A stretch of DNA of 28,049 bases from a virus. The translations under genes and the position numbers were made by a program. Below, in pieces: positions 8,243 to 19,418 of this stretch; position 1 is the stretch's first letter; each line of letters starts with the position of its first letter. The stretch lies in IMG/VR virus record IMGVR_UViG_3300027759_003931, positions 1 to 28,049 of that record, one strand, 5' to 3'. A model generated the notes under the pieces. That model saw only the letters and a list, made by a program, of their open reading frames with translations, was not told where the DNA came from and did not search any database.

Positions 8243-8956
8243 ATGGAAAATAAACTATTAAATAATTTAAATCTAATTTCTATTTCTGGGTGCGGTCATT
8301 CTGGAACAACACTTACGGCAACAGTTTTAGGTGCACATAAAAATTTATTATTAATTCCAACTGAAACAAGAATGTTTCTTGATGATTTTTATGATATTAA
8401 TAGTTTTATATTTAACAACTATACAAATGAAAAAACTTCTATAATAGAAAAAACTCCAAACCATGTATATGTTTTAGATAAAATAAAATTAAAGTACCCA
8501 GAAACAAAATTTATATTAAACATTAGGGATCCAAGAGATATTGCAGCATCACTTTATAATAGATTTGATGACTGGAAAAAAACAATGGATAGACTTAAAA
8601 AAGATTTTGAGTATGTAAAAAAATTTTATAATGAATCTTATATAATTAAATATGAAGATATTGTAAATGAGTTTGAAAATACATTTATAAATACATGTAA
8701 ATATTTAAATATAGATTTTGATAAAAATATGTTAACTTATTACAAAGCACCTACAAATTGGTTTAATGTTAAAAATCCTAAAAAAACAAACGGCAAAGAT
8801 TTTAATGGTAATCATGAAATGAACAGGTCTTGGCAAGTAAATCAACCACTTTTTGACGGCACTGGTAGATGGAAAAAAGAATTAAACAATAACCAAATAG
8901 ATGATGTGGTAAAAAATGTTGGAGAATTAGCCAGTTTCTTTGGGTATACGATATAA
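8243..8956 (+). CDS. PAPS-dependent sulfotransferase
   Basis: A 237-residue cytoplasmic sulfotransferase that would move sulfate from PAPS to an acceptor hydroxyl. SGCGHSGTTL at 15-24 is the 5'-phosphosulfate-binding loop, EKTPNH at 69-74 follows, and NIRDPRDIAASLYNRF at 93-108 is the 3'-phosphate-binding region with Arg95 and Ser103. A late RW near residue 210 is also typical. The gene is far more AT-rich than the kinase gene beside it, suggesting separate acquisition. It begins three bases after WhiB. The acceptor is unknown; the glycan genes on the other strand make a sugar plausible. Confidence 0.88.
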   Translation: MENKLLNNLNLISISGCGHSGTTLTATVLGAHKNLLLIPTETRMFLDDFYDINSFIFNNYTNEKTSIIEKTPNHVYVLDKIKLKYPETKFILNIRDPRDIAASLYNRFDDWKKTMDRLKKDFEYVKKFYNESYIIKYEDIVNEFENTFINTCKYLNIDFDKNMLTYYKAPTNWFNVKNPKKTNGKDFNGNHEMNRSWQVNQPLFDGTGRWKKELNNNQIDDVVKNVGELASFFGYTI

Positions 8957-8972
8957 TGATTGTGGAGGAAAA

Positions 8973-9734
8973 ATGATTATACAGATAATTGGATTGCCTG
9001 GCTCTGGTAAAACAGAACTGGCAAAAGCCCTTAAAGAACGTATCAATGCCATTCATCTTAATGCAGATGCGGTACGTGCTACAGTAAACTCTGATCTTGG
9101 ATTTACCGTCAAAGATCGTATAGAGCAGGCACGACGTATGGGGGCTATGGCAAGGCTTATTGCAAATCAAGGAGTTGCTCCAGTCATTGTAGACTTTGTT
9201 TGCCCAACAGAAGAAACTCGTGAGGCATTTGGTAAGCCTAATATTTTAATATTTATGGACACGATTACGCAAAGTCGTTTTGAAGATACAAATAAAATGT
9301 TTGAGCGTCCTGAAACTGCTAACGTATACTTTTCTAATCATGAACTAAATGCTGAAGAAAAAGCATCTCACATAATTGAAAAACATGGTTTGCACGATTG
9401 GTCTGTACCAACAACACTTATGCTTGGTCGTTATCAACCGTGGCATGATGGGCACCATGCTCTATACAAAGAAGCGGGTAAGCGAACCAATCAAGTATTA
9501 CTTGGTGTACGCAATACATACAATACAAGTGAAAAAGATCCACTTAAGTTTGATCAGGTAAAAGAATATATTGCTAAAGATAAGTTCATGGATGGATCAA
9601 TGGTACTTAGACTTCCAAACATTACTAACATTGTCTATGGCCGTGACGTGGGATACAAGATTGAACAAATAGATTTGGGGGCAGACATTCATGCTATTTC
9701 GGCTACTGAAAAACGTCGTGAACTGGGCATCTAA
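8973..9734 (+). CDS. APS kinase-like domain fused to a nucleotidyltransferase
   Basis: A 253-residue fusion. Residues 1-120 match APS kinase (CysC): P-loop GLPGSGKT at 7-14, NADAVR at 30-35, DLGF and DRIEQARRMG at 41-57 (CysC has DLGF...DRIENIRRxG), then FVCPTEETREAF. Residues 146-253 form a HxGH-type nucleotidyltransferase with LGRYQPWHDGHH at 151-162 and ISATEKRR at 242-249, plus VYGRD at 221-225, a GRD reminiscent of ATP sulfurylase. If both halves act on sulfate the protein would make PAPS for the neighbouring sulfotransferase; the second half could instead be an NMN- or glycerol-phosphate-type adenylyl or cytidylyl transferase. GGAGGA fixes the ATG at 8973, although the open frame extends upstream. 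Confidence 0.82.
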   Translation: MIIQIIGLPGSGKTELAKALKERINAIHLNADAVRATVNSDLGFTVKDRIEQARRMGAMARLIANQGVAPVIVDFVCPTEETREAFGKPNILIFMDTITQSRFEDTNKMFERPETANVYFSNHELNAEEKASHIIEKHGLHDWSVPTTLMLGRYQPWHDGHHALYKEAGKRTNQVLLGVRNTYNTSEKDPLKFDQVKEYIAKDKFMDGSMVLRLPNITNIVYGRDVGYKIEQIDLGADIHAISATEKRRELGI

Positions 9735-9822
9735 TGTTGGACAGGGGATTGCAGATGCAGAAGACAGATTTGTTAAAAGCATGTTTGAGGAAGATATAGA
9801 TCATGAAAGTAACGAAGACTAG
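9718..9822 (+). CDS. Candidate 34-residue acidic protein with GTG start
   Basis: An open frame overlapping the end of the fusion gene by 17 bases and the start of the next by 20. It reads MNWASNVGQGIADAEDRFVK and continues acidic to the stop. Amphipathic, phage-like composition favours a real product, but the ribosome site is poor and no homologue is known to me. Confidence 0.4.
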   Translation: MNWASNVGQGIADAEDRFVKSMFEEDIDHESNED

Positions 9823-10006
9823 ATCATTTGTTAAAGCATTAAGTTATCGCATATGGGGAACGCTGTCCTCCGTTGCTGTTGCTTATGCTATAACAAAAAA
9901 TGCTTCACTATCTATAACAATTGCATTTTGGGAAACAGTGGTTAAAGTATTTATTTATTATGGACACGAACGTGGATGGAATTATATTCAATGGGGTAGA
10001 AAATAA
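9803..10006 (+). CDS. DUF2061 small membrane protein
   Basis: A 67-residue membrane protein with two hydrophobic stretches at about 14-29 and 37-53, an N-terminal basic RSFVKALSYRIWGT block and a C-terminal HERGWNYIQWGRK, the hallmarks of DUF2061. Its function is unknown. I recall DUF2061 proteins lying next to sulfate-activation genes in some bacteria, which would fit the APS-kinase-like gene just upstream, but I cannot check this. A GAGGAAG ribosome site lies 10-16 bases before the ATG. Confidence 0.85.
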   Translation: MKVTKTRSFVKALSYRIWGTLSSVAVAYAITKNASLSITIAFWETVVKVFIYYGHERGWNYIQWGRK

Positions 10007-11854: not shown

Positions 11855-12547
11855 ATGGATTTTGTCTATATATGTAAAGATGGAGTAAACGAAGAACTAA
11901 AGTATTCAATTAGATCTGTCATTGAAAGTTTTCCAGAAGCAAACATATGGCTTGTTGGTGGTAAGCCTGACTGGTATGTAGGAAACTATATAAAAGTAGA
12001 ACAAAAAGAATCAAAGTATAAGAATGCTGTAAAAAATTTACAAACAATTTGTTTTTCACAAGAAATATCAGAATCTTTTGTTTTAATGAATGATGATTTT
12101 TATATTATTAAAAAAATAGATAAGATAGAAAACTTTCACAGTGGTTCATTATTAGATAAGATAAACTTGTATCAAAAATTAAATGGTAACTCTCAGTACA
12201 CTAGAAAACTTTCAGGCACATATAAAAAACTTAAAGCGTTAGGATTTGAAGATCCTTTAGATTATGAACTCCACGTCCCCATGATTATGGAAAAAGAAAA
12301 ATTAAAGATAGTTCTAGAACTTTTAGATCAATTTTTATGGAGATCTATATACGGAAACAAGTTTAATGTTGGTGGAACACAAATGGAAGACGTCAAGGTT
12401 TACAACTCTGGACCATTAGTTCTTAAGTCTTATAATTTAAACATAGATGATCATACCTATTTATCTAGTGCAGATAGTTCATTTAATAATATATTTAATA
12501 AAATACTTAAAACTAAATTTAATAAAAAAACTAGATTTGAGCAATAA
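11855..12547 (+). CDS. Stealth-like sugar-phosphate or glycosyl transferase
   Basis: A 230-residue protein starting MDFVYICKDGVNEELKYSIRSV, then IWLVGGKPDW, and LMNDDFYIIKKI around residues 77-88. The NDD-FY block is the acidic motif of Stealth-type capsule phosphotransferases and GT-A transferases. An ELHVPMIM segment near 142-149 is compatible with the same group. It would transfer a sugar or sugar phosphate to a glycan. Very AT-rich. It is the last plus-strand gene and its end overlaps the convergent minus-strand glycosyltransferase by 17 bases. Confidence 0.68.
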   Translation: MDFVYICKDGVNEELKYSIRSVIESFPEANIWLVGGKPDWYVGNYIKVEQKESKYKNAVKNLQTICFSQEISESFVLMNDDFYIIKKIDKIENFHSGSLLDKINLYQKLNGNSQYTRKLSGTYKKLKALGFEDPLDYELHVPMIMEKEKLKIVLELLDQFLWRSIYGNKFNVGGTQMEDVKVYNSGPLVLKSYNLNIDDHTYLSSADSSFNNIFNKILKTKFNKKTRFEQ

Positions 12548-13568
12548 GTTCTAAGTATTTATCTTTCAATATTGTTGGTGCAAAGTTGTTAAATCCTAAA
12601 TTATAGGCCTGTTGCTTATAGTTAGTTTTATCATTGATAGACATATACCTATCAATTGTTTGTGCTAACAAAACATTATTTGCTTCAAACAAATTAATTC
12701 TAACTTTTGTTCTAATTGTTCCTATAGAGTCTGATTCAACTAACCAATCTTGTGGCAAGATCTGATTATTAGGTGAAACATTTGTCATAAAAACGGGAAG
12801 ACCAGAAAGCAAAGCCTCATTCATTGGTAAACATAGTCCTGCATATCGTCTTGGCAATACCATAGCATCAAAGCCATTATACATATCTTCCCTGTTTTCT
12901 GGATTACCAATTTCAATCTTTAGTCTTGAGTCTGTTACATTAGTTACTATTTCACTTTGACTTCTAATAACTAATTCATAATCTGCTTTAGAGTGCTTTA
13001 GCATATTTATTACGGTTTCAGTACCGTTTCTATCTTTTGCTGCCTTTTTCCCAGCAATGTGTAATAGTCTATTGTGTGATTTAGAGATGTTATTATTTTT
13101 TGCAGTTGCAAATAACTCAGGAGTAGTTGGAGGTGGAAGATGAATTACCTTTGTTCTATCTCCAAACATACTTTGAATTGTTTCAATTTGCCATAAACTA
13201 GGAGATAGTAGGACGTTTGGCAAGGGCAGTTCTGGGTTTGCTAAGTGACCAAACAGTTCATAGTTATACTGAAGAATGGTTTTTACTCCCCGTCTATTTG
13301 CAAACCTTATAAAGTTTTGATCGTAAAAGGTCTCACAACTTAGTACAACATCTACATCTCCTAAAAACATTTTTATCTGTTGAACAGATGGAAAACCCTG
13401 TGTCTTAATACAACTATATTGGTCGTACCATTCTGGATGTTGCTTATTATTATTAAACGGGGTAGAGTCAATTAAAAGAATCTTATCAGGACTAAGCATA
13501 TTAACTAATTCTCTAGTCTGATTACCAAGGCCAGTATTATCTGATCTTGCTATGATTCCTAGTCTCAT
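12531..13568 (-). CDS. Glycosyltransferase, GT-B fold (GT4-like)
   Basis: A 345-residue GT-B-type transferase that would move a sugar from a nucleotide donor to a glycan. MRLGIIARSDNTGLGNQTRELV starts the first Rossmann domain, LLSPSLWQIETIQSMFG begins the linker, and GLCLPMNEALLSGLPVFMTNVSPNN in the C-terminal half is the GT4 donor-binding block with the E-containing loop. It is the last gene of the sugar operon, overlapping its upstream neighbour by four bases (ATGA). Donor and acceptor are unknown. Confidence 0.87.
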   Translation of the reverse strand: MRLGIIARSDNTGLGNQTRELVNMLSPDKILLIDSTPFNNNKQHPEWYDQYSCIKTQGFPSVQQIKMFLGDVDVVLSCETFYDQNFIRFANRRGVKTILQYNYELFGHLANPELPLPNVLLSPSLWQIETIQSMFGDRTKVIHLPPPTTPELFATAKNNNISKSHNRLLHIAGKKAAKDRNGTETVINMLKHSKADYELVIRSQSEIVTNVTDSRLKIEIGNPENREDMYNGFDAMVLPRRYAGLCLPMNEALLSGLPVFMTNVSPNNQILPQDWLVESDSIGTIRTKVRINLFEANNVLLAQTIDRYMSINDKTNYKQQAYNLGFNNFAPTILKDKYLELIAQI

Positions 13569-14326
13569 TCTTTATACCCCCAAGCATCATCATCCTTAGT
13601 ATATTTTCTTGTACCCTGACGACCATCTAAGTGGTAAGAACGTTTGATCTGTCCTTCTGGGTGATAAATCCAAAGTTTGTGTGTATCCCATCCTTCTTGA
13701 CTAAAAGCATTATAAGGAAAAATATCATCTTGAACCTTGCCGTGAAAATTATCCTCAATAAAGGTTTTTTCATCAGAGAATGGTAAAACTATATCTTTAT
13801 AATATTTTACAGTACTTAAGTGTGGTCTCTGACTCCACTGTGCTGTTTTCATAAAGCCATTCTCTAACCCCATCATAAGGTGTTTATGTGGCTCTGGAAT
13901 TTCTGATTCATGATGAAAACGAATAGTATTTGCATGACCAAGTTCTAACATGTCTAAACACTTTTGCCAATCAATTTCATAATCTGTAACTAAAGGTGCA
14001 TCACCTTCAACATAAAGCATTGCTGAAGTATCTATAAGTTTAATAGTTCTTTTCATCATTGTAGTTTGATGGCTATGTTCATCAAAAATTATTGGTAGTA
14101 TATTTTTATATTGATGAAGGCATTTCCACAATATGCGGTTTTTATATTCATCGTAATCTTTTTTACGATTAAGTTGCTCATCCCTTAATCCATCTATTTG
14201 CATAATTATTTCATTATCTGGAAAATGAAATCGTATATCATTAATAGTTTGTTCTATCATTGTAGTATTAGGATGATCTGGAATTACAGATGTTGCAATA
14301 ATTATAGTTATGTCTCTTTTATGCAT
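13565..14326 (-). CDS. GT-A glycosyltransferase-like protein
   Basis: A 253-residue protein with an N-terminal strand DITIIIATSVIPDHPNTTMIEQTI, IIMQIDGLRDEQ, and MLYVEGDAPLV around residues 102-112, an acidic DxD-like site where GT-A enzymes bind metal and donor. The C-terminal half has several His and Trp. Likely a retaining or inverting sugar transferase, though the family is not pinned down. It overlaps the preceding gene by eight bases and the following by four. Confidence 0.6.
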   Translation of the reverse strand: MHKRDITIIIATSVIPDHPNTTMIEQTINDIRFHFPDNEIIMQIDGLRDEQLNRKKDYDEYKNRILWKCLHQYKNILPIIFDEHSHQTTMMKRTIKLIDTSAMLYVEGDAPLVTDYEIDWQKCLDMLELGHANTIRFHHESEIPEPHKHLMMGLENGFMKTAQWSQRPHLSTVKYYKDIVLPFSDEKTFIEDNFHGKVQDDIFPYNAFSQEGWDTHKLWIYHPEGQIKRSYHLDGRQGTRKYTKDDDAWGYKE

Positions 14327-15167
14327 TTACTTGCCTCATTAATTTAATACTAAGATCTCTTTTATATTTTATCCACCAACAAACTACTTGATGCATATTT
14401 TGTGGATAGTTTTCAAGTAAGCCAGGAATTATTTTTGTTAAGTTATGCCAATTATCTGTAACTTGTATTGGAAAATCTGTACCAAAAAGAAGAGTAAAAA
14501 AGTTTGTTTCTTGCATTCTTGAATTTAATCTATCTCCTACTGGTAAACACAACATCTCTATAGCCTCATAAAATCTAAAAGAATCTATTACCTCTGCACC
14601 GCTTGGACATGGGATAATTTTACTAATAAACATCTTGTCATAATATACTTTAGGGACTAGACCCTGTGCAAAACCAGTAGTTGGTTCATAGACAGAGTTT
14701 GGTATTAATGGCATTACTTCTGCTAGTTCTTTTCTTCTTGCATGGGTTATTTGCCCTGCAAAAAATACATCATAGGATTTGTCTTGGTACTCTGGTAAGT
14801 TTTTACTTAAATGTTGCGGAACGCCAAGGGCTAACCTATTATATTTTTTATGTTTATCATGAGGACATGCAATCCATATCTCAATATTGCTATGTTTAAT
14901 CTTATCTACATCAAAAGATCCACTTTCATCACCAGTAATAAATAAAACTACCCTGCCTATTTTGTTTAACTCATCGGATATTAATTCCTCATGCCCTATA
15001 TTTTGTGGTCCAGGCACAACAACAAACGCTCTACCTTTAGGAAGTAATGTTGTAACTCTTTCTGGAATAATATTATTTTTATCAAAAAACTCTTTTAATA
15101 AACCATAGTCCCACTTATCAGCAGCACAGTCTTCTTCTTTAACTGAATAAAGGTATGCGCTAATCAT
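14319..15167 (-). CDS. Exostosin/GT47-like glycosyltransferase
   Basis: A 282-residue protein with VFFAGQITHARRKELAEVMPLIPN at about 134-157 and ISKIIPCPSGAEVIDSFRFYEAIEMLCLPV at about 182-211. The latter is the exostosin-type donor-site pattern (SKFxLCPxG...SxRxYEAxxxGCIPV), which indicates a GT-B transferase. The N-terminal half is degenerate, as in many phage members. Coupled to both neighbours by short overlaps in the operon. Confidence 0.72.
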   Translation of the reverse strand: MISAYLYSVKEEDCAADKWDYGLLKEFFDKNNIIPERVTTLLPKGRAFVVVPGPQNIGHEELISDELNKIGRVVLFITGDESGSFDVDKIKHSNIEIWIACPHDKHKKYNRLALGVPQHLSKNLPEYQDKSYDVFFAGQITHARRKELAEVMPLIPNSVYEPTTGFAQGLVPKVYYDKMFISKIIPCPSGAEVIDSFRFYEAIEMLCLPVGDRLNSRMQETNFFTLLFGTDFPIQVTDNWHNLTKIIPGLLENYPQNMHQVVCWWIKYKRDLSIKLMRQVNA

Positions 15168-16327
15168 TTTGTAGCCTTAACAAACATCCATTCAGGATGC
15201 ATATGATCTGTAAAGATTAAGTTTTTAAATCCTACATCGCTTAATATTCTGTCAATTTCAAACCTTGATGTTTGATAAGAGTATGCAGAATTTTCTTCCC
15301 CAACAACAAATTGAAAGAATAAAATACCACCAACTTTTAATTTTTCATAAGCAAGTTTTATATATTTAATTTTTTCTTGGTGATTAATATGTTGAAAGAC
15401 TAGCATTGAGTACACAAGATCAAGGTTGTCTGCAAGTTCTTGATACTTTATATTATCTTTCTTAGGTGCAAGTTTAATCATTTCATCAGATATATCTATT
15501 CCGTAAAAGTTGCATTCATTATATTTCTCTGCAAGAGGAACGAGCAGCCTTCCTATTCCACATCCAATCTCTAAAACATTATTCCAAGAGTCATTATTAT
15601 TTTCTATAAGATTTAAAAATGTTTCAGTAGGTGCCCACTCATCTGCAATATATTTATATCTTACATCTAAATCTTTTGCAGCATTGTCCCAAAAAACTTT
15701 AGCATGATCTGATATTAAAACTTCCCATAGTTCTTCTTCTACAATAAGTTGTGCAAATAATTTTTCATCTACAATATATGGATTGTTTGCGTATTTTATT
15801 TGTGAATCATATTTTTTTATTGCATTAGTTTTATTTTTTGTAAAGTTAGTGTTGATTTTTTTTAAACCACAAAGTGATGTAAATATTTTTAATCTTGTTT
15901 CATACAAATCTTGATATGACAATTTGTATGGCAACTCAGCATATACAAAATATTTTTTATCAAAATGCTTCATTAAATTAAACAAGGTATCTGATAAAAA
16001 TACGTGGTCTGGATGATGAACTCCTAGTGGAATATATATATTATCAAAATCTACAATTATACTTTTTATCCAATTTATTAAATCATCTTCATTTTGTTTA
16101 CCATAAACATCATCTAATAGATCTCCATTAATAACTTTAGCATTTACCATAGAACAGGCTTCATCATGTTCTTTTCTTAATGTAGTATGCTTTTTATATC
16201 CAGCATCATCTGTTGGTATACCAGCAAATGCAGATGCAATTGTAAAATCATCACTACTATCAAGGATGTAATCCCCTAAAGAAAAAATTCCATCATCTGT
16301 ATGTGAACAAAATATAAGACTACTCAT
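15164..16327 (-). CDS. Fusion of PIG-L-type deacetylase and SAM methyltransferase
   Basis: A 387-residue two-domain enzyme. Residues 1-150 have the PIG-L zinc site: HTDD at 9-12 and GVHHPDH at 102-108, typical of N-acetylglucosaminyl deacetylases. The usual Glu after DD is Gly here, so catalysis needs checking. Residues 225-387 form a class I methyltransferase with LEIGCGIGRLL at 252-262 and a GGILFFQFV strand at 333-341. A longer frame begins at a TTG, but the ATG overlapping the upstream stop by eight bases is the coupled start. Deacetylation followed by methylation of one sugar is a reasonable reading. Confidence 0.85.
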   Translation of the reverse strand: MSSLIFCSHTDDGIFSLGDYILDSSDDFTIASAFAGIPTDDAGYKKHTTLRKEHDEACSMVNAKVINGDLLDDVYGKQNEDDLINWIKSIIVDFDNIYIPLGVHHPDHVFLSDTLFNLMKHFDKKYFVYAELPYKLSYQDLYETRLKIFTSLCGLKKINTNFTKNKTNAIKKYDSQIKYANNPYIVDEKLFAQLIVEEELWEVLISDHAKVFWDNAAKDLDVRYKYIADEWAPTETFLNLIENNNDSWNNVLEIGCGIGRLLVPLAEKYNECNFYGIDISDEMIKLAPKKDNIKYQELADNLDLVYSMLVFQHINHQEKIKYIKLAYEKLKVGGILFFQFVVGEENSAYSYQTSRFEIDRILSDVGFKNLIFTDHMHPEWMFVKATK

Positions 16328-17030
16328 AGAACAAGTGAACTTCGTGTTGGTAATCAAGCAATGTTTCTTTATATCCTAAATTTTTTATCCATTGTCTAAG
16401 ACTATATAAGGATTCATCCCATTGTTGTAACATAAATTCAGGGTGTCCAGATAACCAAATCTTAGGCTTATGCTGCTTAAGCACCTTCTCAGCCCCTCCT
16501 AGGACCCTCCATTCACTGCCCTCTACGTCCAAGGAAATGGCGGTAGGTGGCTTAATCCCGTGATCATAAACACAAGAATCTATAGTTATCTGACCATAAG
16601 AATCACCTTCAAGGTATAACTCTTTAAAGCCATGGGCAATATCAAGATATTCTTCTTCCGCTTCTGGAGGAAATGCGTTGCAATATATTCGTGAAAGATT
16701 GTTTATCTTGTCAGAAGCAAATCCAGGTATACAGACCATTGGAAGTTTTAGATTATTAGCAGACCAAGTTCTTGGAAGGTGGGACCATACTTTAGGATTA
16801 GGTTCAAACAATACAACTTCTGCTCCCCACATTTGACAAAGCGCTGGAAACTCACCTTCTTCTGCACCAACATAATAAACAACATCACCCTTACCAATGT
16901 TATTGTGCATTGATTTAAGCCTTAACTTTTCCCAACCTGATTCACTGTGCCATTCTGGTCTATCTGCACGATGTTTTGGAAGAACTATTTCAAATTCTCC
17001 ATTTAGTATTGTTTTAACCATCTCTGTCAT
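16320..17030 (-). CDS. FkbM-family methyltransferase
   Basis: A 236-residue protein with YYVGAEEGEFPALCQMWGAEVVLFEPNP at about 52-79, where the usual SAM-binding glycine motif is replaced by a degenerate form, and ISLDVEGSEWRVLGGAEKVL at about 165-184, the strongly diagnostic FkbM block, then KIWLSGHPEFM. FkbM enzymes O-methylate sugars or polyketides and are typical of phage and bacterial surface-glycan clusters. Overlaps its neighbours by four and eight bases. Confidence 0.88.
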   Translation of the reverse strand: MTEMVKTILNGEFEIVLPKHRADRPEWHSESGWEKLRLKSMHNNIGKGDVVYYVGAEEGEFPALCQMWGAEVVLFEPNPKVWSHLPRTWSANNLKLPMVCIPGFASDKINNLSRIYCNAFPPEAEEEYLDIAHGFKELYLEGDSYGQITIDSCVYDHGIKPPTAISLDVEGSEWRVLGGAEKVLKQHKPKIWLSGHPEFMLQQWDESLYSLRQWIKNLGYKETLLDYQHEVHLFYE

Positions 17031-17536
17031 TTTATTGCCTCTACAAAATAAAATTCATGTTCTCTTGTATCAAGTTCATAAATTTTTTCATTTGAATATA
17101 CTGTTTGTTTAAATTTTGTTTCAGAAACATTACCAAAGTCAACGCTCTTTAATTTATATTGTAAGGCTTTACTTGTTAACAGTGATGCTGATTGTGAATA
17201 CCAAGTTAACCATGCAGAAAATCTATTGTCTAAGTCATCTTCAGAGTTAGGAAAAAAACTAATATTGTTATTTTTATATGCATCAAATCCAGAAACTATG
17301 TCTGGAAGGCTAATTCTTACAACCCCTCCTGGCTTCAAAACTCTATAAAATTCTGACAATACCTTTTTAATATCATGATACTTAACACAACAAACTATTG
17401 CATGACAAACAATAATATCGCAAGAGTTATCATTTATTGAGTCTAAATTTTTATGCTCTGTATTAAACTCTGGATCAATATCTATATTAGTCCAATTAGA
17501 AGGCTGAATGCTTCCACATCCAAAGTTTATATTCAC
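17027..17536 (-). CDS. SAM-dependent methyltransferase, class I
   Basis: A 169-residue protein with INFGCGSIQPSNWTNIDIDPE at the start, the SAM-binding loop of the predicted methyltransferases often placed near glycosyltransferases, and EFYRVLKPGGVVRISLPD at about 81-98. It is shorter than many family members and ends soon after the core. Probably methylates a sugar or lipid carrier. Coupled by four-base overlaps in the operon. Confidence 0.82.
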   Translation of the reverse strand: MNINFGCGSIQPSNWTNIDIDPEFNTEHKNLDSINDNSCDIIVCHAIVCCVKYHDIKKVLSEFYRVLKPGGVVRISLPDIVSGFDAYKNNNISFFPNSEDDLDNRFSAWLTWYSQSASLLTSKALQYKLKSVDFGNVSETKFKQTVYSNEKIYELDTREHEFYFVEAIK

Positions 17537-18462
17537 TTACTGTCCATGTAAAAATCAACAATTTCTTTCATGCTATCTTTCATAGTATGACTTGGCTTCC
17601 AGTTAGTTTTTTCTTGCAGCAAGGAAGAATTCATAAACTGCTTTTTAATCTCAAATCCATCACTCTTAATTATCTCATGTTTGATTTCTTTACCAATGAC
17701 ACCTTTAACAATGTTAAATACTTCAAGGGTGGAATATCTTTCTCCAGATGATATGTTAAAAGATGGAATATTGTTTATTTCTTCTCCATATGAAAGTATG
17801 CTGGCGTATGCTGAAACAACATCTTTAACGTTAATGTATTCTCTGACATCTCTTCCATCATTTCTTATTGTAAACAATGCATTTTCTTTGTATGCTTTTA
17901 CAATTCCAGGAATCAATCTTTGTGTATTGTTGTCGCCAGTTCCATAAATGTTGCAAGCGCGGGTAGTAACAATTGGCATGCTATAAGTATTTCTATAAGA
18001 GTTACACATAATGTCTGTAATAGACTTAGATGCATCGTAAGGATATATGCCATTGAGAATGTGGTCTTCAAAATATTCATCGTTAGTTAGTTCGCCGTAG
18101 GCTTTATCGCTAGAGGCAACAATGATTGATTTGCACTCTTTGTATTCTCTTAATGACTCAAGAACATTTAGAGTTCCAACAGCGTTTGTATAAAATGTAT
18201 TGTATGGGTATTTGATTGAATCATAAGCCTGTGTCTGTGCTGCAAGATGAATAAAATAATCTGGTCTTGATTTTTCTATAAAGAAATCAACATCTACTTT
18301 ATTATTAATACTTCCATACACCCTGTTTACATCTTTAGAAAGTTCTGTGCGACTATGCTCATCTTTTAGCAGTACAAATACGTTATAACCTAATGATAAG
18401 TAGTGGTTTGATAGGTGAGATCCAAGCAGCCCTGTGGCACCAGTTATTGCTATATTTTTCAT
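17533..18462 (-). CDS. NAD-dependent sugar epimerase/dehydratase (extended SDR)
   Basis: A 309-residue extended short-chain dehydrogenase. ITGATGLLGSH at 6-16 is the NAD-binding loop, HLAAQT around 72-77, VASSDKAYGE around 115-124 and PYDASK at 141-146 give the catalytic Ser/Asp-Tyr-Lys set. The SSDKAYG...PYDASK layout matches nucleotide-sugar 4,6-dehydratases (CDP-glucose or GDP-mannose type). It would make an activated deoxy- or epimer sugar for the nearby transferases. It is the only sugar-nucleotide enzyme in the operon, so precursors would be host-made. Confidence 0.87.
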   Translation of the reverse strand: MKNIAITGATGLLGSHLSNHYLSLGYNVFVLLKDEHSRTELSKDVNRVYGSINNKVDVDFFIEKSRPDYFIHLAAQTQAYDSIKYPYNTFYTNAVGTLNVLESLREYKECKSIIVASSDKAYGELTNDEYFEDHILNGIYPYDASKSITDIMCNSYRNTYSMPIVTTRACNIYGTGDNNTQRLIPGIVKAYKENALFTIRNDGRDVREYINVKDVVSAYASILSYGEEINNIPSFNISSGERYSTLEVFNIVKGVIGKEIKHEIIKSDGFEIKKQFMNSSLLQEKTNWKPSHTMKDSMKEIVDFYMDSK

Positions 18463-19418
18463 TTTATCCCCAATTCACTTATAATTGTACCCCATCTGTG
18501 GACATATGTGTGCTCTTTCTTTGTTCTTTCGTGTCCGTTAAGTCTGATGGTTTCTCTTGATAGCCCGTCCAACAAATACTTGTCTATCTTATTTTTTAGA
18601 TCTTCTAGGTTACCGTGTTCATAAAATACAATTTCATTTTCGTCTTTGAAGTATTCTTCAAGCCCTTTAATACGAGGGTAGATAGTAAAACCACCACGAC
18701 CAGTACTCTCAAACAACCTATCACTAGTGTAGTAAGGATAGTTAAAGTTAATGTTTAAACTATCCCCTATCGCTACTTTGCTTTTAGCATAGATACGGTT
18801 TAACGCATCTCCACGTACAGTTCCAGTATCTCCATCTCCACCAACGTGTAAGAATCTTTTGCCGTAAGTTTTTCTCAAAAAGTCTATTAATTCTGGACGG
18901 TATTTATGTTCATGATGATAACCCTTGCTACCAACAAAGATAATATCATTTTCAAAGTTATGAGGATCATATTCTTCATGGATATAACATTCTTTATCAT
19001 AGACTCCAGCAGGAAGAAAGTGTCCTTTGACCTGTGTATTTTCATTAAACCAATCACACATTAACTTATCTGTAGCAAAGAAGTGACCTATGTTTGTATA
19101 AAAATCATCATTCTTTAAATCTTTTTCACGTTCAATTCCGAACCACAAATCTAAATGATAGGTCATGGTTGGTATGCCAGCAGTCTTTAATTCTTTTAAT
19201 ACATCTGTCATTGTTTTAGATCCTGGGGTTTGCCATCTGTGTGTGTGTACCCATATAAATAGATCAGAGTTTAATGATGCGTTTAATATTTCTTCGCTTG
19301 TTGCTTTCTTTTCCTGCAATTTCTGCACGGTATAGCCAAGAGACTCTAAAGACTTAGCATGATGATTCTCACTACTATAAGATACTTCAAAGTTACCAAG
19401 AAAAACTATGTTAGCCAT
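18459..19418 (-). CDS. CgeB-like glycosyltransferase (GT-B)
   Basis: A 319-residue GT-B protein. The N-terminal half has IVFLGNFEVSYSSENHHAKSL and FFATDKLMCDWF, and the C-terminal half YYTSDRLFESTGRGGFTIYP followed by GLEEYF and NEIVFY. That is the Glyco_trans_1_2/CgeB pattern of maturation and surface-glycan transferases. It begins the enzyme part of the operon, overlapping its upstream gene by eight bases. Confidence 0.85.
   Translation of the reverse strand: MANIVFLGNFEVSYSSENHHAKSLESLGYTVQKLQEKKATSEEILNASLNSDLFIWVHTHRWQTPGSKTMTDVLKELKTAGIPTMTYHLDLWFGIEREKDLKNDDFYTNIGHFFATDKLMCDWFNENTQVKGHFLPAGVYDKECYIHEEYDPHNFENDIIFVGSKGYHHEHKYRPELIDFLRKTYGKRFLHVGGDGDTGTVRGDALNRIYAKSKVAIGDSLNINFNYPYYTSDRLFESTGRGGFTIYPRIKGLEEYFKDENEIVFYEHGNLEDLKNKIDKYLLDGLSRETIRLNGHERTKKEHTYVHRWGTIISELGIK

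Follow-up and report, generated by a model that had tools for sequence, protein, structure and literature searches.

The 28-kb virus record IMGVR_UViG_3300027759_003931, analyzed over its whole stretch of 28,049 nucleotides (hereafter, the window), carries at positions 8243 to 10006 a cassette of genes for a sulfotransferase, a two-domain fusion protein, and a small DUF2061 protein. The fusion, which combines an APS kinase-like domain with an HxGH nucleotidyltransferase (NTase) domain, is probably a minimal PAPS synthase that has a non-homologous sulfurylase half and feeds the phage sulfotransferase; no activity of this protein has been measured. The C-terminal NTase, an apparent derivative of NMN adenylyltransferases that is unrelated in sequence to Sat/Met3 and CysDN, would convert ATP and sulfate to APS and PPi (the ATP sulfurylase reaction), and the N-terminal kinase would phosphorylate the 3'-OH of APS, yielding PAPS. 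With PAPS as the donor, the neighboring sulfotransferase would then sulfate an unidentified acceptor, for which a glycan of the surface or virion, produced by the glycan operon in the window, is plausible. The DUF2061 protein, small and probably membrane-bound, may serve as a membrane anchor for the enzyme or help sulfate to enter. Both reactions and the use of sulfate as the NTase acceptor are inferred, as are the part played by DUF2061 and the target of sulfation.

The assignment of the kinase and the NTase to sulfate activation relies on the APS-kinase fold, the fusions of DUF2061 with CysN, and four kinds of genomic context: the position of the two genes at the end of CysI-CysH-DUF2061-kinase-NTase operons, their presence in apr/CysQ clusters, a three-domain Rhizobium protein, and the adjacency of sulfotransferases in phages. 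These contexts lend comparative support to the proposal of the initial annotation that the fusion makes PAPS for the sulfotransferase.

Domain composition of the cassette

The cassette had been described as three consecutive genes, and this description holds: the open reading frames are intact, lie on the same (plus) strand, and belong to families recognized above the Pfam cutoffs. Domain content, conservation of the active-site motifs and of the gene context, and the APS-kinase fold of the kinase half are established computationally. The sulfotransferase (8243 to 8956, 237 aa), of the PAPS-dependent type, passes the cutoffs of both PF13469 (Sulfotransfer_3; 54.4 bits, cutoff 27) and PF00685 (Sulfotransfer_1; 25.4 bits, cutoff 22). 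Intact PAPS-binding motifs had been ascribed to it; a 5'-PSB-like GCGHSGTT and, further downstream, an ILNIRDPRDI stretch are present. This family was found at only 11 viral loci (73 to 100% identity), produced no match in isolate phages, and showed weak matches to PDB sequences in phmmer.

Immediately upstream of the cassette lies a WhiB gene, from which an actinobacterial host is inferred. The phage is also inferred to infect streamlined freshwater bacteria, for which dependence on exogenous reduced sulfur has been reported (PMC11561045), so that their phage may need a PAPS supply of its own. Downstream of the cassette, positions 11855 to 12547 (plus strand) encode a Stealth_CR2-like protein (weak Pfam match; phrog_7999), which adjoins a long run of ORFs on the minus strand (12531 to 19418) that by eye resemble glycosyltransferases, methyltransferases, and epimerases. 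This run and its Stealth_CR2-like neighbor are a candidate origin of the sulfated glycan. It is reasonably likely that the cassette serves sulfation in this phage; that the acceptor is a glycan is possible, if rather uncertain.

The fusion gene (8973 to 9734, plus strand, 253 aa) likely starts, judging from the sequence, at the ATG at 8973, which follows a GGAGG, rather than at the TTG at 8940. Its product matches phrog_10255 (“kinase”) with 216 bits, residues 1 to 252 aligning with positions 2 to 229 of the 230-position profile. All the motifs quoted in the initial annotation in support of APS kinase and HxGH NTase halves, namely, GLPGSGKT, DLGF, DRIEQARR, GRYQPWHDGH, GRD, and ISAT, were located in this protein. 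The AlphaFold model of the fusion has a pLDDT of 91.8, and its top 50 PDB matches in Foldseek (E values down to 4.6e-9) are all APS kinases or enzymes with APS-kinase domains, many of them with APS bound. The possibility that the fusion is a chance product or an artifact is ruled out by its end-to-end conservation over hundreds of contigs.

The kinase half (residues 1 to 138; 8973 to 9386), with the P-loop GLPGSGKT at 8991 to 9014, is APS-kinase-like by both sequence and predicted fold, as the initial annotation had it: residues 2 to 86 match PF01583 (APS_kinase) with 58 bits (cutoff 21.1), in agreement with the Foldseek top 50. The score against the NCBIfam equivalog model TIGR00455 is 60.2 bits, below the cutoff of 138.7. 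The asparagine of the DRxEN motif is replaced by Gln or His, and the lid region is shorter than in APS kinases, where the DRxEN asparagine and the lid residues have well-known roles. The kinase very likely acts on APS, with phosphorylation of its 3'-OH inferred from context in the absence of biochemical data. The phage proteins L245:3102-3995 and L275:59-1018 have at their C terminus a divergent kinase-like domain that is a relative of this half; the former is encoded directly upstream of the fusion.

The NTase half (residues 143 to 253; 9399 to 9734) contains GRYQPWHDGH (9426 to 9455), YGRDVGY (9636 to 9656), and ISATEKR (9696 to 9716), all conserved in homologs. The patterns GRxQPxHxGH, YGR[DG]VGY, and ISATxxR are retained across 47 non-redundant NTases, and an alignment of 17 sequences has 24 invariant positions in this half. 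The match to Pfam CTP_transf_like (17.4 bits) is below the cutoff of 21, and neither NadM model is met (PRK01153, 22.8 bits, cutoff 127; TIGR01527, 18 bits, cutoff 181). In hhalign, the NTase profile matches NMNAT with a probability of 98.8%, over the first 77 of 114 columns, versus 5% for Sat. Modeled alone, this half (pLDDT, 89.0) shows weak structural matches to NMN and pantetheine-phosphate adenylyltransferases (best E value, about 1e-3). A remote homolog of Sat was considered and rejected, given the 5% hhalign probability, the absence of Sat from the 50 best Foldseek matches, and a shared stretch limited to ISGT/ISAT; the Pfam search likewise found no match to the Sat domain PF01747 in the fusion. 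For this half, the comparison with the APS kinase, ATP sulfurylase, and NMNAT families proposed in the initial annotation led to the NMNAT group, and profile comparison places the origin of the NTase half in the NMN-adenylyltransferase branch and not in ATP sulfurylase. The PAPS reading was to be considered refuted if this half grouped with NMN or glycerol-phosphate transferases and the kinase half lacked APS activity; the grouping was indeed obtained, and a lack of APS activity is not indicated. Since the NMNAT match spans only 77 of the 114 columns and the NTases have conserved motifs of their own, the NMNAT branch appears to be the source of the nucleotide-binding part, and the acceptor side looks family specific. 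That the NTase is a sulfurylase is a probable inference from operon position, with no activity measured.

The third gene (9803 to 10006, plus strand) encodes the DUF2061 protein, which covers almost the entire PF09834 model (59.6 bits, cutoff 23.1). DUF2061 is found at 86 of 89 near fusion loci (a few of which overlap) and stays with the fusion despite differing gene order around them. It was detected at 19 of 80 distant viral loci, in 14 cases with a start no more than about 15 bases from the fusion end. In other proteins, DUF2061 is joined to CysN or to CysN-CysC, domain architectures that tie it to sulfate activation independently. The literature search on DUF2061 function found nothing.

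Viral relatives and their sulfotransferase neighbors

Relatives of the fusion were found in the scan on at least 593 viral contigs, so that its layout, described as unusual in the initial annotation, is in fact common in phages. Eighty near relatives have 83 to 95% identity, and a second scan gave 80 distant viral loci (36 to 51%). Among isolated phages, full-length relatives (39 to 41%) are encoded by Casjensviridae of Stenotrophomonas, Xanthomonas, and Clavibacter and by the Stenotrophomonas phage DLP_6.

Linkage to sulfotransferases was assessed with local profiles made from Pfam-checked sulfotransferases. At 19 of the 80 distant loci, a sulfotransferase gene is located within 2 kb of the fusion, and at 7 of them within 50 bp. 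These neighbors are of the Sulfotransfer_1/3 and Sulfotransfer_2 types and lie on either side of the fusion; the phages that carry them are diverged and separated in the tree, and more than one Pfam family is represented. A whole-contig scan for Sulfotransfer_3 produced matches in 14 of 48 long contigs; in half of those 14, a match falls within 2.5 kb of the fusion, versus 1.5 contigs expected at random (P = 1.5e-4, with the contigs not fully independent). Most near phage loci have no sulfotransferase adjoining the fusion, and none was found near it in Casjensviridae. The earlier view of the sulfotransferase as the cassette partner had to be revised accordingly: the constant partner of the fusion is DUF2061, and sulfotransferases are recurrent accessory neighbors.

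In Casjensviridae, the fusion is directly preceded by a NADAR gene. In the Stenotrophomonas phage Bhz60, the end of this gene (L090:6553-6996; PF08719, 92.6 bits) slightly overlaps the beginning of the fusion gene; the Xanthomonas phage AhaSv and the Clavibacter phage 33 have a similar gene order, with the gene at the NADAR position annotated as hypothetical. Several phage proteins of 584 to 617 aa (L249:1129-2922, L262, and L265) combine a sulfotransferase domain at the N terminus with a C-terminal region that resembles separate 345- to 450-aa neighbors elsewhere, with weak TPR matches. No report of a phage PAPS synthase was found in the literature search.

Bacterial homologs and their sulfur gene neighborhoods

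Tracing DUF2061 into bacteria led to four interrelated alphaproteobacterial genomes that share an operon encoding sirohydrochlorin chelatase, CysG-type methyltransferase, CysI, CysH, DUF2061, kinase, and NTase, in that order. The last two genes are in the exact position expected for APS kinase and ATP sulfurylase; if they have these activities, assimilatory sulfate reduction would have its enzymatic steps accounted for. The kinase and NTase of the window are, respectively, 40 to 42% and 47 to 49% identical to the proteins from this operon. A search there with PF01507 found CysH and no CysD. The absence of Sat is not cleanly demonstrated: G413, an operon-bearing genome searched nearly whole (0.8 Mb), has a Sat homolog in a surface-glycan island, and for G521, neither Sat nor CysD was found in the 734 kb scanned of about 0.9 Mb.

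Full-length homologs of the fusion are encoded in SAR11 and other marine alphaproteobacteria. There, separate genes with an 8-base overlap mostly encode the kinase and NTase, located beside aprA-aprB-aprM (apr genes were recognized by eye and AprA was confirmed with TIGR02061). CysQ is encoded near them in about nine apr loci (a representative was confirmed with TIGR01331), and at some apr loci just one of the halves is present, either the kinase or the NTase. Three Pelagibacterales loci (L191, L192, and L198) have, on one strand and without the kinase, the gene order NTase-aprM-aprB-aprA-116aa-TauE. The conserved 116-aa protein (e.g., L101:5206-5556, minus strand) has no Pfam match and is encoded beside aprA at nearly all alphaproteobacterial loci. 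In MarineAlpha5 (L141 to L143), the kinase is found without the NTase beside apr and TauE.

Hand cross-tabulation of 198 Pelagibacterales genomes gave 145 with both AprA and the pair, 15 with AprA only, 12 with the pair only, and 26 with neither (Fisher P = 2.5e-13, uncorrected for shared ancestry). Here, the pair means a strong match to the kinase, the NTase, or both; weak matches of about 1e-10, typical of CysNC, were excluded. Among the 160 AprA-encoding genomes, Sat was found in 8 and CysD in none. ATP sulfurylase is reportedly absent from most SAR11 (PMC10356861).

Pelagibacterales also encode a second kinase-NTase type away from apr (L181 to L200), with neighbors that by eye include genes for Rieske oxygenase, methyltransferase, and sarcosine/dimethylglycine dehydrogenase-like and phytanoyl dioxygenase-like proteins. 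Short Sat homologs (about 350 aa) are encoded amid surface-glycan-type genes in Pelagibacterales (L177 to L180) and in G413 (L376:1793-2857, minus strand) and may have a role in glycan modification; the homolog in L178 has an APS-kinase-like gene next to it.

A single 555-aa frame from Rhizobium sp. BK376 combines Sulfotransfer_2 (residues 21 to 231), APS-kinase-like (291 to 408), and NTase (433 to 539) domains, the last two being 53% and 45% identical to those of the window. The linked kinase-NTase pairs form a tree (midpoint rooted, without support values) with phage branches interspersed among bacterial ones, so that, as far as such a tree allows, the module was probably exchanged between phages and bacteria more than once.

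Alternative interpretations and known systems

With NMNATs as the nearest relatives of the NTase half, the fusion could act in NadR-like NAD salvage, the kinase making NMN from nicotinamide riboside and the NTase adenylating NMN to NAD to counter host NAD depletion. Phages are known to carry NadV, NadM, and NadR (PMC9503650), and the NADAR gene directly upstream of the fusion in Casjensviridae is a context that fits an NAD role better. This reading is nevertheless unlikely: the kinase half is APS-kinase-like rather than a NadR kinase, the NMNAT likeness does not extend to the acceptor side, and both the bacterial sulfur contexts and the Rhizobium sulfotransferase fusion would be left unexplained. 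Also improbable is a genuine APS kinase in something other than a full PAPS synthase from sulfate, with the NTase shifting the adenylyl group of APS to another phosphate acceptor, or working in SAR11 solely in the direction that consumes APS. The NTase-only operons with aprMBA and TauE would suit an APS-consuming step, and the NTase lineage consists of adenylyltransferases with phosphate acceptors; however, conversion of sulfate to APS is the sole step missing from the CysI-CysH operons, and a fusion of this kind could feed a sulfotransferase only with a host source of APS.

The mixing of functions in phage genomes and the minority status of sulfotransferase neighbors in the closest relatives leave some room for a fusion with an unrelated nucleotide role that meets sulfotransferases by chance in glycan regions. 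Such a coincidence is very hard to reconcile with the nonrandom sulfotransferase positions, with the more than one Pfam family found beside the fusion in tree-separated phages, and with the three-domain Rhizobium protein. A Campylobacter-type cytidine-diphosphoramidate kinase was also considered and set aside, as its partner transferase belongs to another superfamily. Against the minimal PAPS synthase itself stand the NMNAT lineage of the NTase, the NADAR context in Casjensviridae, the Sat homolog of G413, the apr loci with a single half, the Gln/His in place of the DRxEN asparagine, the short lid, and the few sulfotransferases at near loci.

The broader proposal, favored here with considerable reserve, is that these NTases form a third class of ATP sulfurylase, derived from NMN adenylyltransferases, beside Sat and CysDN, which phages join to an APS kinase in a 250-residue PAPS synthase that supplies their own sulfotransferases, SAR11-type bacteria use as well, and DUF2061 accompanies as a membrane partner. 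If true, an unrelated enzyme class would be added to a textbook step, and phages would carry complete cassettes for sulfate activation plus transfer. The NTase class would serve the missing sulfate/APS step of SAR11 and related ocean bacteria, filling the recognized gap in SAR11 that have APS reductase but mostly no known ATP sulfurylase (PMC10356861). DUF2061 and phrog_10255 would gain a testable role, and testing takes just two small domains.

Among known systems, the fusion resembles the bifunctional PAPS synthases (animal PAPSS and bacterial Sat-CysC; PDB 1x6v and 2gks) in combining an APS-kinase domain with an HxGH-type domain of the adenylyltransferase superfamily. The kinase comes first, as in human PAPSS1, and the Foldseek alignment with 1x6v spans about 266 columns. 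Unlike these enzymes, which have about 550 to 630 aa, the fusion has only 253, and its second domain has no sequence homology to Sat. With the APS kinase CysC (PF01583, TIGR00455), it shares the P-loop, DxxR, GF, DR.E, and F.xP motifs and the fold but scores far under the TIGR00455 cutoff, lacks the DRxEN asparagine, and has a shortened lid. With NadM and NMNAT-Nudix proteins, it shares the GRxQPxHxGH nucleotide-binding half, whereas the acceptor half of this NTase of about 110 aa has the YGR[DG]VGY...ISATxxR signature and the gene context is that of sulfur metabolism. The phrog_10255 family is the same two-domain protein at full length, but its PHROGs function is only “kinase,” with the NTase half, the sulfur role, and DUF2061 unrecorded.
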